Assembly (NCBI RefSeq): GCF_014642075.1
Contig: NZ_BMIK01000010.1
Span: forward strand, 62,380-126,379
Direction: 5' to 3'
Length of the DNA stretch: 64,000 nucleotides
DNA from: Parapedobacter defluvii
GTDB lineage: Bacteria > Bacteroidota > Bacteroidia > Sphingobacteriales > Sphingobacteriaceae
Positions within the stretch are counted from its first letter, which is position 1; the number at the start of each line of letters is the position of its first letter. Positions 41,785 to 47,103 of the stretch are shown here, piece after piece. Below the pieces are notes generated by a model, which ran no database searches, was not told the DNA's origin, and saw nothing but the letters and a program-made list of their open reading frames with translations. A program made the position numbers and the translations under genes.

Positions 41785-41815
41785 AAAAGATTGAATAGAT
41801 GCATTTCCAATCACA

Positions 41816-41881
41816 AATCGTAAGCCGATTCCGGTAAATCGTAAAACTTTTGCAGGCAAAAATGGAAATCCACTTACTTTG
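41816..41881 (+). promoter_or_regulatory. Candidate LytTR-regulated promoter 1
   Basis: AATCGTAA starts at 41816 and again at 41837, exactly 21 bases apart, the centre spacing known for LytTR binding sites. A -7-like TACTTTG starts at 41875, 38 bases after the second repeat. The same layout recurs at 45957-46022. It drives the operon that encodes the LytTR regulator. Confidence 0.65.
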
Positions 41882-41905
41882 AACGCGTCTTTTACAAGAA
41901 AAGCT

Positions 41906-42952
41906 ATGAAGAAAGTGGACAAAAAGAATGTCGCGATCGTACTGTTGAGCCTCATTATCGTGGGATCCGCAGGCTATTACTTATTCGGACATGAGGTAGA
42001 GCGCCTCGTTCATCGATGGCAAAACCCACATATGTATGATTCAGAAGAAACCGCAGACCAATCGGCCGCTGAATACTATGGACATCCTGAGGTTGCAGAT
42101 GCCGTATACAGCTGTGAACGTTTGTATTTTTATGGCGACATGGGTTATATGACCAAGGGCTCGTTACTTGACCAGACTGCCGCTGCGGCATACAGCCGCA
42201 TTCCCGACACCCTACTTCTCATCCATTATGGCGAAGAAATCCAGCAAACGGAGCAAAAAGGCGTGAGCTTTTATGAAACGAAAGCCCGCTTCAGCCCGGT
42301 CAAGATCTATCCGGATAATCCCCCATTAACCACCTACCTGCGCCTGGCCGAACAGGGAAAGGTGGAATACTTAAAACTCTCGCCCAACAAGCGAGGTAGC
42401 CTTGAGGTGGAAGATGAGTGTGATTTCAGAAATGAGTATGCTAATTATTTCGACCCCGATGTGAGTTGGCAGCGCGATACGCCTTTGGCCATCAAAGAGG
42501 TACTTTTGGAGTTTTTCAAGAGCAATGAAGGCAGCAGCTTTGCCTTTGTCAACGACCGACGGAATACCGCGCAGGTGTACCGGCTTGCCAGCTTTACCGG
42601 ACTGAACCAATATACCGACCAGCCGAAGCAGGAATTGGCAGTGGTGCTGAGTGAAAAGAACAGCACGGGCAACGTAAGAGAACGCATCATCGTCATCGGT
42701 TTCGACGATGCGAATAAAGGCAGGATTTTGTTCAACGAAGTGTTCTATTCCAAAATCCTGTTCACGGTCTATAAAGACCCCTATGCCCTCCCCAAAGAAG
42801 CCGTATCATTGGCCGCCTATGCCGCATCGGCACAGCAACTCATTGAGCTAAAAACCAATTCGGATCCTTATTCCTCCTATCTCTACTACGACAAGGAGTT
42901 TGATACGATGATCCGAAAGACATTTCGCCCCGAGGATGAAGAAAACCACTAA
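41906..42952 (+). CDS. Hypothetical membrane-anchored protein, first gene of the LytTR operon
   Basis: 348 residues from ATG 41906; TTG 41879 is in frame but lies in the promoter. One N-terminal membrane anchor (AIVLLSLIIVGSAGYYLFG, about 10-28) and a periplasmic domain of about 320 residues with LYFYGDMGY, KARFSPVKIYPDNPPL and VLSEKNSTGNVRERIIVIGFDD. No family recognised. It overlaps the next gene by 17 bp. Its place ahead of a two-component system suggests a role in sensing or in the regulated process. Confidence 0.75.
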   Translation: MKKVDKKNVAIVLLSLIIVGSAGYYLFGHEVERLVHRWQNPHMYDSEETADQSAAEYYGHPEVADAVYSCERLYFYGDMGYMTKGSLLDQTAAAAYSRIPDTLLLIHYGEEIQQTEQKGVSFYETKARFSPVKIYPDNPPLTTYLRLAEQGKVEYLKLSPNKRGSLEVEDECDFRNEYANYFDPDVSWQRDTPLAIKEVLLEFFKSNEGSSFAFVNDRRNTAQVYRLASFTGLNQYTDQPKQELAVVLSEKNSTGNVRERIIVIGFDDANKGRILFNEVFYSKILFTVYKDPYALPKEAVSLAAYAASAQQLIELKTNSDPYSSYLYYDKEFDTMIRKTFRPEDEENH

Positions 42953-43271
42953 AAAGCACGTCTATATAGCTGGTGGCCTCTTGCTCATCACTTGGCTGAT
43001 GACCGGGTTTGCGGTGGATGATGAGTTTTCGGGTGAGTTCCGGTTTTTTGTCAAGCACCGTCCCGCGCTTCAGTATTATTTTGAATCGCCATTGGGTATG
43101 GAGGATATGCCCGCGGATTATCCTGCGAATAAGACTGCGGCCTATTACACCTACCGGAATTTTGCGCTGGATAGACATTGGTCGTCCGATATGGAATGGG
43201 TGGCGGTCTTCCTCGTCGTGCTGACCATCGCCTGGACTGGATTTGCTGCGTTGGCAAAGAAAATAAGCTAA
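42936..43271 (+). CDS. Small hypothetical membrane protein, second gene of the LytTR operon
   Basis: 111 residues. Two hydrophobic helices, near residues 8-26 (YIAGGLLLITWLMTGFAV) and 88-106 (WVAVFLVVLTIAWTGFAAL), flank a soluble loop. Translation overlaps the preceding gene by 17 bp. It is followed after 15 bp by the response regulator. Function unknown. Confidence 0.75.
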   Translation: MKKTTKKHVYIAGGLLLITWLMTGFAVDDEFSGEFRFFVKHRPALQYYFESPLGMEDMPADYPANKTAAYYTYRNFALDRHWSSDMEWVAVFLVVLTIAWTGFAALAKKIS

Positions 43272-43286
43272 CTTTACGCGCAAGTG

Positions 43287-44018
43287 ATGAATAAAGTAGT
43301 TATCATAGAAGACGAGCCAGCCGCCATAAATGAACTGAAGGTATTGATCGGACAGGAAGAAGGTTTCGAGCTAATGGGAAATGCCGGCACATTGGATGAA
43401 GCGCTGCACCTGATCAGCCGTATACAGCCGGATCTGGTTTTCATGGACATCAACCTGTACGACTGCAATGCATTCGATATCCTGAATAGGCTCCAAACCA
43501 TCCCAAAGCATATTATTTTCGTAACGGCTTACAACCAGTATGCCATCCGGGCAATCAAATACGGCGCATTGGATTACCTGTTGAAGCCGGTTGATGAGCA
43601 GGAATTCAAGGAGGCAATTGAGCGTGTACGGAACTTGAATGAGCTGGCTTCCAGGGAACAGCTTTCGTTGACTGAATCAGCCCTGCAAAAAAAGCAGGCA
43701 CCACAACACATCGCGTTGCCCTCGGTTGGTGAGGTTCGGATTATACCGTTGGCTGATATCAGGTATTGCCGGGGCGACGGACCTTACACGCATTTTTTCC
43801 TTGTAAGCGGCAAGAAAGAAACCGCTTCCAGACCCTTGAAATTTTATGAAAGCATGCTACCCGAGGCACAATTTCTCCGTACCCACCAATCCTATGTCAT
43901 CAATACGGTTTACGTAAAGTTGCTGATCAGTCATACGACCGTAGTGCTGGATAAAGGCGAAGAAATACCGATTTCATCCCGCAGGAAACAGGATATCCTG
44001 AACAGATTGATCCGGTAA
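43287..44018 (+). CDS. LytTR-family response regulator
   Basis: 243 residues. Receiver domain (1-120) with acidic pocket EDE (8-10), phosphoacceptor Asp54 in LVFMDINLYD and conserved Lys in LLKPVDEQEF. The C-terminal LytTR DNA-binding domain (about 140-243) has IALPSVGEVRIIPLADIRYCRGDGPYT, FLRTHQSYVINTVYV and ISSRRKQ. These regulators bind tandem direct repeats; matching repeats are seen upstream of this operon and of the genes at 46043. ATG 43287 is preferred to GTG 43284. The kinase starts three bases after its stop. Confidence 0.93.
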   Translation: MNKVVIIEDEPAAINELKVLIGQEEGFELMGNAGTLDEALHLISRIQPDLVFMDINLYDCNAFDILNRLQTIPKHIIFVTAYNQYAIRAIKYGALDYLLKPVDEQEFKEAIERVRNLNELASREQLSLTESALQKKQAPQHIALPSVGEVRIIPLADIRYCRGDGPYTHFFLVSGKKETASRPLKFYESMLPEAQFLRTHQSYVINTVYVKLLISHTTVVLDKGEEIPISSRRKQDILNRLIR

Positions 44019-44021
44019 GTG

Positions 44022-45944
44022 ATGAGGAATCTCTTAACATATGGTTCGTTATTGTTCCTGCTCATCGTCGGTTTTTCCTGCGGCCGGAAAACAGCTGTAG
44101 GGGTAGCAGGCGGCTCCATTGAAGAAAAAATCCGGCAGCTGCAACCGATTCTCTTGACGCCGGACAATAAAGACTCGCTCGTGCGGTCGTGGAAAACACT
44201 GCTCGACGAGCAGCAGGTGAAAGAAAGCAATCTGTACACGGCCAAAGTAAATTACCAACTGGCCCGCTTGTACGGCATGACCAAGCAGAACGATTCTTCC
44301 GCCCTGCATCTAGAAAAAGCATTCCAACGCATCGAAGCCGAAAAAGGGCATTGGGAAGAGAAAGCCCGGATCTACCAGGGTATCGGAAACCTAAGCCTTG
44401 CCGAAGGGCACCTGCACCGCGCCAATTATTACTACAACAAAGCTGCTGCCATCGTGTTGGCGGATACTTCCGTTGCCCTGGAGCCATCGGCAAAAACCGC
44501 TATCCTGTTGGCTGCTGCACAGAGCAACCAGCAGTTCCAGCGATTGGATCTGGCGTTGGAAATGAACCGGGAAGCCTTATTTCTCTCCAAGCTATTGCCC
44601 GAAAAACACATCAACCGGCATCGGCCGATCACGCAACTGATCCAAAATCTCTACCACATCAAGGGCAACATAGACAGCATCGCCCACTATATTGAGCGGT
44701 TAGAGGCGCTTCAAATTCAATATCCGGACGTTTATGACCCTTATTTTCTATACGAAAGTAAAGCATTGCTTTATGATTTGAAGCGTGAACCGGATTCGGC
44801 ATTGAAATACCAGTTGCTCAAAACAGCGCCTATGGAAAATGCGCCGAACAGTGGAAAATCAGGCAGTGTGATACTCAATAACCTGTTCATTTCCTACGTG
44901 AATATTGCCGGTATTTATACCGCTCAGCAAAACAGGACCAAGGCAACGGAATACTTTGCCAAAGCCAACCTCCTGCTTTCAAAAAATGAAACGGTCCTTG
45001 ATTACGACCACCTCATCGTGTACCACCAGAACCGGGCTGATTATTATACGCTCTCGGGCGATCTGAAAGCATCCCTGCACTCGGCCAACGAAGTTATTCG
45101 CTTGCAAAGCGAACTCTATGACCGGCAAAATACGCAGGCTATCGCTGAAATGAATAGCTTGTATGAAATCCAGACGCAGGAACGTTCGATCCAGCAATTG
45201 AACGAAAGTTTACAGATCAAGGAACTGGAACTGCAGCAAAACCGTTTGTGGACGATGGTGAGCCTATTGGCAGCGGTCCTGTTGGCGATGGTTTTGTTTT
45301 TCATCTATTACGGATTCCGGCAAAGGCGTATACAGCAAGAAAAAGATCAGGTCATCCTGCAACAGCAACTGCTGCGTACACAGATGGAACCGCATTTTAT
45401 TTTCAACACACTTACTGCGTTGCAGCATTACATCCGGCAGGGTCGCACAAAAGAGGCTATCAGCTACCTGAGCCGATTCAGCAAACTGTTGCGGAATTCA
45501 TTGGAAATAAGCAGGGAGCAGTTGGTTTCGTTGGCGCAGGAAGTCGAAACGCTGGAATATTACCTGACCTTGCAGCAAATGCGCTTTGAAAATGCATTTA
45601 CCTACACCCTGCGCGTGCCGGAAGGGATGGAAACCGACGAAATCCGGATTCCGCCGATGCTTCTACAGCCTTTTGTCGAGAACGCCATTCTCCATGGTGT
45701 GGATATGAAATCAGGAAACGGTTTTGTACACATCGTATTTTCGGAAGAAAGGGATATGCTTCATGTAGAAATCACCGATAGCGGCCGTGCCGGAAGGCAA
45801 CAGCATACGACCGGGGGCCACCGTTCACTCTCCGGCATCATCAGCCGCGAACGGCTGGCACTATTGGGCAAAGAAGCCCGCATCGAAACCCGTAAAAATG
45901 AGGATGGCGGCACAAGCGTAACGCTGATGATTCCCGTTTCCTGA
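44022..45944 (+). CDS. LytS/YehU-type sensor histidine kinase with TPR sensor region
   Basis: 640 residues. Signal-like start with GFSC, so the N terminus may be lipid-anchored on the periplasmic face. TPR-like helices fill about 45-360, then a coiled coil (LQIKELELQQN), one membrane span near 403-428 (SLLAAVLLAMVLFFIYYGF) and a cytoplasmic His_kinase domain. Phosphoacceptor His458 is in QMEPHFIFNTL; PPMLLQPFVENAILHGV is the N box and the G-rich SGIISRERLALLG box follows. It should phosphorylate the adjacent regulator. Confidence 0.93.
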   Translation: MRNLLTYGSLLFLLIVGFSCGRKTAVGVAGGSIEEKIRQLQPILLTPDNKDSLVRSWKTLLDEQQVKESNLYTAKVNYQLARLYGMTKQNDSSALHLEKAFQRIEAEKGHWEEKARIYQGIGNLSLAEGHLHRANYYYNKAAAIVLADTSVALEPSAKTAILLAAAQSNQQFQRLDLALEMNREALFLSKLLPEKHINRHRPITQLIQNLYHIKGNIDSIAHYIERLEALQIQYPDVYDPYFLYESKALLYDLKREPDSALKYQLLKTAPMENAPNSGKSGSVILNNLFISYVNIAGIYTAQQNRTKATEYFAKANLLLSKNETVLDYDHLIVYHQNRADYYTLSGDLKASLHSANEVIRLQSELYDRQNTQAIAEMNSLYEIQTQERSIQQLNESLQIKELELQQNRLWTMVSLLAAVLLAMVLFFIYYGFRQRRIQQEKDQVILQQQLLRTQMEPHFIFNTLTALQHYIRQGRTKEAISYLSRFSKLLRNSLEISREQLVSLAQEVETLEYYLTLQQMRFENAFTYTLRVPEGMETDEIRIPPMLLQPFVENAILHGVDMKSGNGFVHIVFSEERDMLHVEITDSGRAGRQQHTTGGHRSLSGIISRERLALLGKEARIETRKNEDGGTSVTLMIPVS

Positions 45945-45956
45945 CTTTGATACACG

Positions 45957-46022
45957 AATCGTAAATCTTTTCCCGCAAATCTAAAACCATTTTCAGTGTA
46001 TTCCCTCTCCATCCTTATCTTG
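45957..46022 (+). promoter_or_regulatory. Candidate LytTR-regulated promoter 2
   Basis: AATCGTAAA at 45957 and AATCTAAAA at 45978 are direct repeats 21 bases apart. TATCTTG starts at 46016, 38 bases after the second repeat. The same two distances are seen at 41816-41881. It precedes two unknown genes. Confidence 0.65.
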
Positions 46023-46042: not shown

Positions 46043-46600
46043 ATGCGAGTTATAGGTTATATCCTGCTCCTGGTAGCATCGGCAAGCTGCACATCTACCC
46101 GCAAGCTTTCCAAAAAATTTTCGGAGCAGCCGGCTGTCATCACAGCACAGTTTAGCGGTGTGGGCTATTCCAATACACCCGCAGAAATCACGGAGCGTTA
46201 CACCGTTGTGCGTTCTCGCCTATGGGACAGATTGGCGGCACACCGTCCGGAAAAGGATACCCTGCCTCCCGTTCGCGACGAGGCGATCATCCGCTTGGCT
46301 TTGGCAACCGAAGCCCTTTTGAAAGTCGAGGCATACGAGCAGCAGCAACGTATCGCAGGTTTCAACGTTCCTGTCCGCAAACGCGACAAATACCTGATTT
46401 TGGAAAAGAAAAGAAAGATGATTCCCATTCCGGTTATCTATTTCGACGTGAAAGAAGCGATCACCGTATTGGCTCCACTGAAGAACAATCGGGTCGGAAT
46501 CCACCGCTACAGCGACCATACCTTATGGATCCTATTTTTTGGGGCAAGCAAGACCGGCCGTTCCATCGAAGAATACGAACAGATTAACGAAACAGAATGA
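46043..46600 (+). CDS. Hypothetical lipoprotein, LytTR regulon candidate
   Basis: 185 residues, lipobox SASC. Mostly helical and basic with KFSEQPAVITAQFSGVGYSN after the signal and RKRDKYLILEKKRKM in the middle. No family recognised. It is the first gene after the second tandem-repeat promoter and overlaps the next gene by four bases (ATGA). Confidence 0.7.
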   Translation: MRVIGYILLLVASASCTSTRKLSKKFSEQPAVITAQFSGVGYSNTPAEITERYTVVRSRLWDRLAAHRPEKDTLPPVRDEAIIRLALATEALLKVEAYEQQQRIAGFNVPVRKRDKYLILEKKRKMIPIPVIYFDVKEAITVLAPLKNNRVGIHRYSDHTLWILFFGASKTGRSIEEYEQINETE

Positions 46601-47103
46601 ACAAGCGAACCTTTCTTTTCAATCCTAAAAAGCGCCGGAAAATCCTCATTATGGGTGTACTGGTGGCAGTGCTGGGCGGTGCCATGCTGTACGTTTCCTT
46701 ACAATCCGGAGGGATAAAAACCGGGTACGTACTGGTATTTGCCAGTGTGACGGTTGGTGGCGGCAGCATGGCCCTGGCTCAGCTTCTAAGAATGACTAGC
46801 CGGGAGCAGACTGGCCTAGAGCTGGATGCCGACGGCCTCTATTTCAAAGGAACGATTCTTGGAAAAACCGTTGGGAAAATCAAATGGCGGGATATAGCAG
46901 CTATCCAGACCGGCACGGTTCATGGCAGCAACCAGTTGTTTGTCAAACTGGCGGTGCCGGGGCAGTATGCCGCGAAGATAGCTAACCGGCAGGTCCGGAA
47001 AATACTTTCAGCACAAGGTCTTCCATTGAATGCCGACGAACTAGACATTGATTTCCATGAAATGGAGACTTGTATCATGCAGTATTATCATCAATATCAT
47101 TGA
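46597..47103 (+). CDS. STM3941-family-like membrane protein
   Basis: 168 residues. Two N-terminal membrane helices (about 15-33 and 43-65) follow a basic FNPKKRRK start. The cytoplasmic domain reads LELDADGLYFKGT, KIKWRDIAAIQ and a closing NADELDIDFHEM, the order of STM3941-type domains. It is translationally coupled to the lipoprotein gene upstream. Function unknown. Confidence 0.72.
   Translation: MNKRTFLFNPKKRRKILIMGVLVAVLGGAMLYVSLQSGGIKTGYVLVFASVTVGGGSMALAQLLRMTSREQTGLELDADGLYFKGTILGKTVGKIKWRDIAAIQTGTVHGSNQLFVKLAVPGQYAAKIANRQVRKILSAQGLPLNADELDIDFHEMETCIMQYYHQYH

Follow-up and report, generated by a model that had tools for sequence, protein, structure and literature searches.

Among LytTR regulators, AgrA and ComE of Firmicutes recognise tandem sites with a period of about 21 bp, located upstream of the promoters that they activate, that of their own operon included. 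In E. coli, YpdB and BtsR (YehT) each form a pair with a LytS-type kinase. In Streptococcus mutans, the LytTR regulatory systems (LRS) HdrRM and BrsRM act by positive autoregulation through 9-bp direct repeats, mostly 12 bp apart, which lie 4-11 bp upstream of the -35 element there and with a bias to 10 bp elsewhere (excerpts of PMC6193735). More generally, a LytTR site is defined as two 9-11 nt repeats with 11-13 nt between them, a common sequence not being required (excerpts of PMC4847170). Here we analyse a locus of Parapedobacter defluvii, on contig 10 of the 5.8-Mb genome, where a LytTR response regulator (RR) and a histidine kinase (HK) are encoded between two promoters carrying such repeats. 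The window, that is the whole stretch of DNA analysed, is 64,000 nucleotides long (NZ_BMIK01000010.1, positions 62,380 to 126,379), and the locus comprises six genes, all on the + strand: A, B, RR and HK behind the first promoter, lip and a gene of the STM3941 family behind the second. We estimate at roughly 0.83 the probability that this RR, fed by an HK of the tetratricopeptide repeat (TPR) type, is an activator of envelope genes and, in this genome, of the operon that encodes it.

A LytS/LytTR pair is common to this locus, YpdB and BtsR, and of all NCBIfam models that of BtsR gives the RR its highest score. The RR is nevertheless not BtsR, because it reaches 122 bits where the BtsR cut-off is 246. 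Unlike YpdB and BtsR, the locus has another half-site sequence, a -7 box of the Bacteroidota type and TPR-like repeats on the HK. AgrA and ComE also differ from it by their half-site, as well as by Firmicutes-type promoters and a peptide signal. As to the LRS, the partner of their LytTR regulator is a membrane inhibitor protein and no kinase; the system studied here, with a receiver domain joined to the LytTR domain and with an HK, is not one of them. In length, spacing and place, the repeats agree with general LytTR sites and with streptococcal LytTR promoters, as far as the excerpts of PMC4847170 and PMC6193735 describe them. In the open-licence literature on LytTR regulators we found neither the half-site word, nor the Bacteroidota promoter layout, nor the regulon, and, although genomes of this kind encode many LytTR regulators (20 LytTR domains in P. 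defluvii), no operator-promoter layout for any Bacteroidota LytTR regulator, which is weak evidence of novelty.

A sequence-only reading of the window had drawn attention to two pairs of 8-mers with a 21-base spacing, each followed by a -7-like box. Both pairs are present as described, AATCGTAA starting at 41816, 41837 and 45957 and AATCTAAA at 45978, and the spacing is borne out for each. TACTTTG at 41875 and TATCTTG at 46016 both lie 38 bases past the start of the second 8-mer; their place stands, with the correction that both have the form TAnnTTG and lack one base of the Bacteroidota consensus, TAnnTTTG. The 8-mers are 13 nt apart, and the 12-bp half-sites described below are 20-22 bp apart in relatives, start to start, which fits the definition of a LytTR site. 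Words so short and A+T-rich might resemble each other by chance, and four further, single copies of AATCGTAA do lie in the window (+ strand, 19619 and 50002; - strand, 9780 and 1805). However, the pair AATC[GT][AT]AA N13 AATC[GT][AT]AA has two matches in the window, both at these promoters, and none in 60 dinucleotide shuffles. Nor does the geometry occur at random frequency across the genome, a point on which the sequence-only reading had staked its claim: RCRRATYNTAA N10 RCRRATYNTAA, with at most two mismatches, is matched 8 times in the 5.8-Mb genome, versus 2 for the reversed control pattern. Both matches with one mismatch are the two window promoters, and the remaining 6 need two mismatches. 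Chance likeness, which is also contradicted by the conservation, the hold-out sites, the spacing and the -7 offset reported below, is hardly credible.

The half-site was refined to a 12-bp motif, [GA]C[GA][GA]AT[TC][GA]TAAA, by a fit on 43 loci and the window. Pairs of the fitted motif are found 43 times at 21 bp and 30 times at 20 bp, as against 0-3 times at each other spacing from 12 to 35; the 21-bp count entered the motif training, the 20-bp count did not. Another matrix was built from eight pairs taken from the four closest genomes; applied to 55 other loci, it detected pairs mostly at 20 bp (33) and 21 bp (29), besides 3 each at 22 and 19 and 1 at 16, with no pair at any other spacing from 14 to 29. 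Fifteen loci were withheld from the fit: 14 pairs were found in 6 of them, all at 20 or 21 bp, two of these 6 loci having three half-sites in a row, each counted as two pairs. Control regions near other LytTR genes yielded no pair at 16-25 bp in 36 short loci (130 kb), and in 20 other-LytTR loci of 20 kb (400 kb) none at 20-22 bp and a single one, at 27, across 14-29. Triple half-sites at 21-bp steps were seen in four loci (L130 at 12363, L142 at 12330, L133 and L140).

Among 64 non-redundant sites, just one other feature is strongly conserved in the 75 nt that follow the half-sites: a box resembling TAnnTTTG, located about 41 nt (40-42) past the start of the proximal half-site. Matches to at least 5 of 6 positions number 10 at +40, 28 at +41 and 8 at +42, with at most 3 at any other offset. 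The exact forms in these 64 sites are TAnnTTTG in 13, TAnnTTG in 12 and TAnnTTT in 23. Remote pairs were picked without using the box (22 exact pairs in 20 regions of G283, G278 and G191, three genomes with 34 exact pairs altogether), and 18 of the 22 have it, again with at least 5 of 6 matches, at +40 to +42. A score combining half-sites and -7 box, fitted on the clade's own matches, reaches 15 in 49 of 59 clade loci and in none of 20 controls; six of the 49 loci have no training-set site (L133, L135, L136, L140, L141 and, weakly, L094). At a score of 12, there are four control matches in three loci, and only the two promoters emerge from the 64 kb, the score having been fitted on sites that include them. 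In Flavobacterium psychrophilum, a promoter class with TAnnTTGY (SM5) has been reported, for which dependence on an alternative sigma factor is presumed (excerpts of PMC9723704). Since the window boxes read TAnnTTG, the two promoters may, by this analogy, be served by another sigma factor than the main one.

The pair follows the regulator across genomes. Relatives of the RR (E 1e-60 or better) are present in 58 of 399 family genomes, the exact 21-bp pair in 44 and the 20-bp pair in 24, whereas the reversed control was found once and never, respectively. The 21-bp form occurs in 40 of the 58 genomes with the RR and in 4 of the 341 without it; for either form the figures are 42 of 58 and 4 of 341. 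The corresponding Fisher value, 8e-39, overstates the case because the genomes are related. In a phylogenetic tree, one branch (support 100/97) splits the 48 regulators that have a pair from 20 other LytTR regulators, with 11 further clade members outside the count, several long branches flagged and a bootstrap not fully settled. The pairs might still belong to another protein, a different LytTR regulator or a non-LytTR factor, the adjacent RR being incidental: the window genome has 20 LytTR domains, and four genomes carry exact pairs but no close RR. Against such an owner stand the contrast between 40/58 and 4/341, the empty 20-22 bp class in the 20 other-LytTR loci, and the 13 of 59 loci where the pair directly precedes the RR, 83-91 nt before its start; moreover, one of the four exceptions (G117) is a tandem array. 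We thus hold another owner to be very unlikely. The array in question, at G117:C2:2029090-2029205, comprises six units resembling ACAAATCATAA, one every 21 bp.

We propose that the HK, with its presumably periplasmic TPR-like part, membrane segment and LytS-type kinase domain, would phosphorylate the RR, and that the RR would bind the two direct-repeat half-sites, spaced by two helical turns (20-22 bp). As the -7 box spans -12 to -5 (excerpts of PMC9723704), the proximal half-site would be at about -53 to -42, some 41 nt ahead of the weak -7 box and just upstream of the would-be -33 element. Being there, the bound RR could contact RNA polymerase, recruit it to the weak box and activate. Two promoters would be controlled in this way at the RR's locus: A-B-RR-HK, with positive feedback via the position of the RR in the operon, and lip-STM3941. 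From its sites, the RR very probably switches on both its own operon and the neighbouring pair of envelope genes. The sign of control is not given by sequence alone, so that the RR might bind the pairs but repress, or do both depending on phosphorylation; in the A promoter, a TTTTG at 41848-41852 could act as a -33 element, which would be needless for an activator. However, the promoter core begins only downstream of the site, which overlaps neither the -7 box nor the start site, and the absence of a conserved -33 element and the many imperfect -7 boxes among the 64 sites are as expected of activator-dependent promoters. LytTR repeats placed in the same way activate in S. mutans (excerpts of PMC6193735). 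Repression therefore seems unlikely.

The coordinates of sites and genes are collected in Table 1. For the first promoter, the sequence-only reading was right that the pair precedes the operon of RR and HK, but the first genes of that operon are the uncharacterised A and B, not the RR. A and B overlap, and the gaps are 15 bases between B and RR and 3 bases between RR and HK, because of which the four genes probably form a single operon. The RR has the two domains of a LytTR response regulator (PF00072, 71.8 bits for a cut-off of 30.2; PF04397, 51.7 bits for 22.6). The HK is of the LytS type (PF06580 His_kinase, 71.5 bits for a cut-off of 25.2), and its match to TPR_12, 30.0 bits, is just under the cut-off of 30.1. 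Gene adjacency points to the HK as the partner of the RR. By our reading of its topology, an N-terminal hydrophobic stretch is followed by the TPR-like repeats, a membrane segment and the His_kinase domain; because the TPR-like part stands between the hydrophobic stretch and the membrane segment, the HK probably senses the periplasm. A structure model of gene A, of medium confidence (mean pLDDT 68.4), matched nothing in the PDB at E 0.001 or better, and that of lip (mean pLDDT 44.2) was too poor for a structure search. The closest LytTR paralogue of the RR in the same genome (G000:C10:134965-135699) is about 29 kb beyond it and 38% identical; no such pair is found at 20-22 bp in the 20-kb locus of this paralogue (L143).

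Table 1. Operator half-sites, -7-like boxes and genes of the P. defluvii locus (window coordinates; aa, amino acids).
Feature	Position	Strand	Remark
Distal half-site, A-B-RR-HK promoter	41813..41824	+	ACAAATCGTAAG
Proximal half-site, A-B-RR-HK promoter	41834..41845	+	GTAAATCGTAAA; 21 bp from distal
-7-like box TACTTTG	41875..41881	+	41 nt past proximal 12-mer start; predicted transcription start near 41887
Distal half-site, lip promoter	45954..45965	+	ACGAATCGTAAA
Proximal half-site, lip promoter	45975..45986	+	GCAAATCTAAAA; 21 bp from distal
-7-like box TATCTTG	46016..46022	+	41 nt past proximal 12-mer start; predicted transcription start near 46028
Gene A	41906..42952	+	348 aa; N-terminal hydrophobic segment; no Pfam/NCBIfam family above cut-off
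Gene B	42936..43271	+	111 aa; hydrophobic segments; no family; overlapping A
RR	43287..44018	+	receiver and LytTR domains
HK	44022..45944	+	TPR-like repeats, His_kinase domain
lip	46043..46600	+	185 aa; lipoprotein-like start with Cys16 (our reading); no family above cut-off
STM3941-family protein	46597..47103	+	168 aa; NF041635, 52.8 bits (cut-off 40)

The nearest relative of the RR, 88% identical, is found in Parapedobacter pyrenivorans, where the six genes and both pairs are kept, with one change in the two 12-mers of the lip pair and two changes in the A pair. In two Sphingobacterium species, S. micropteri (L040) and S. corticibacterium (L041), RR-HK is separated from A and B, which form divergent units, and a pair precedes each of the two. 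In L040, lip is likewise preceded by a pair; in L041, a remnant of lip follows a drifted one. A pair on each unit of a rearranged gene set is what a shared operator predicts. The locus is present in 2 of the 9 Parapedobacter genomes searched: the other seven (G001-G003, G005-G008) have no gene A at E 0.001 and no RR relative at E 1e-60. In seven loci with distant A homologues, no pair scores 20 or more (best 19.3, as compared with 27-30 for the window pairs under the same matrix).

Several observations weigh against activation by the RR through these pairs. At the promoters themselves, both window boxes are one base short of the consensus, none of the three forms of the box is present at 16 of the 64 related sites, and no -33 element is conserved across the 64; a -33 motif was not found in Flavobacterium johnsoniae either (excerpts of PMC7366714). 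The plain matrix finds no local pair in 7 of 40 first-set loci and in 9 of 15 hold-out loci, and by the combined score, at 15, 10 of 59 loci are still without one. Sixteen of the 58 RR-bearing genomes lack the exact pair, those of P. defluvii and P. pyrenivorans among them because their pairs carry mismatches, and conversely G110, G117, G157 and G259 have the exact pair with no RR match at the strict cut-off, their best RR matches being 34-38% identical. Finally, no pair precedes the regulator operon in the two nearest Sphingobacterium relatives, so that autoregulation is not universal. It rests on the layout of the Parapedobacter operon, with a pair upstream of what spacing suggests to be a single A-B-RR-HK unit, and on the loci with a site directly before the RR. 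The autoregulated LytTR regulon with a defined activator architecture, proposed from the sequence, is supported: the fixed distance recurs, and the pair tracks this regulator clade and not the other LytTR loci examined. Autoregulation is probable here but no general rule.

Larger sets of predicted targets were found in relatives. Exact pairs number 16 in G283, 11 in G278 and 7 in G191, which predicts regulons far larger than in Parapedobacter, and six genomes without a strong local pair hold remote ones (G181, G253, G208, G322, G304 and G373). Eight of the 21 remote target proteins were scanned against Pfam, where only TonB_C and Band_7_1 (plus Band_7) exceeded the cut-off, and one remote target of G283 (L200) is at best a weak A relative (E 1e-4, 14 bits). 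As we read their sequences, the targets predicted in the clade are frequently short proteins of exported, lipoprotein-like or membrane type, and we take the system for an envelope-linked response whose target set may vary by species.

In the window genome itself, the six 21-bp matches with two mismatches were rejected as targets: in no case does a start codon follow at the usual distance of 80-130 nt together with a box, and several are inside open reading frames. The 20-bp form gave 5 matches, all with two mismatches, versus 4 for the reversed control, which is background. A 21-bp direct repeat of AAATTATAA-like words (G000:C11:89900-89931, L183; G004:C3:312768-312799, L164) was likewise set aside, its geometry being unlike that of the studied promoters; it is conserved in two Parapedobacter species and ends at the start codon of an open reading frame of 336-337 aa.

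Two half-sites 20-22 bp apart, with a -7 box about 41 nt further on, might constitute a general activation code of Bacteroidota LytTR regulators, written in half-site words specific to each clade. We put this forward tentatively, and hold it doubtful. In the non-coding DNA of other LytTR loci, self-similar pairs do peak at 21 bp, in 16 of 49 loci (one short locus of the count lying within a longer one), with at most 9 at other spacings from 14 to 31; versions without gene masking were confounded by codon periodicity. Among 138 strand-counted pairs with 9/12 identity, a box is found at 39-43 in 10, and in 10 and 10 at control offsets; among 73 pairs with 10/12 identity, in 6, versus 1 and 2. 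The link to the -7 box is therefore weak in these loci. Two sister LytTR loci, L144 of the same genome (near 2.2 kb, - strand) and L149 of P. pyrenivorans (near 12.2 kb, + strand), have in common a CAGTTAMTCAT-like 21-bp pair of their own that is followed, after 40-41 nt, by TCAATTTG; the strand concerned is the one directed away from the regulator gene. Were the code general, the targets of most LytTR regulators in such a genome could be read from sequence.

The comparative support is unusually firm. A Bacteroidota LytTR regulator gains a half-site, a spacing rule, a -7 distance and predicted target promoters in more than 40 genomes, which would range from a two-promoter local switch in Parapedobacter to the 16 exact pairs of G283. 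Each of these promoters can be tested by point mutation, and several uncharacterised families of envelope proteins would be tied to one regulator.

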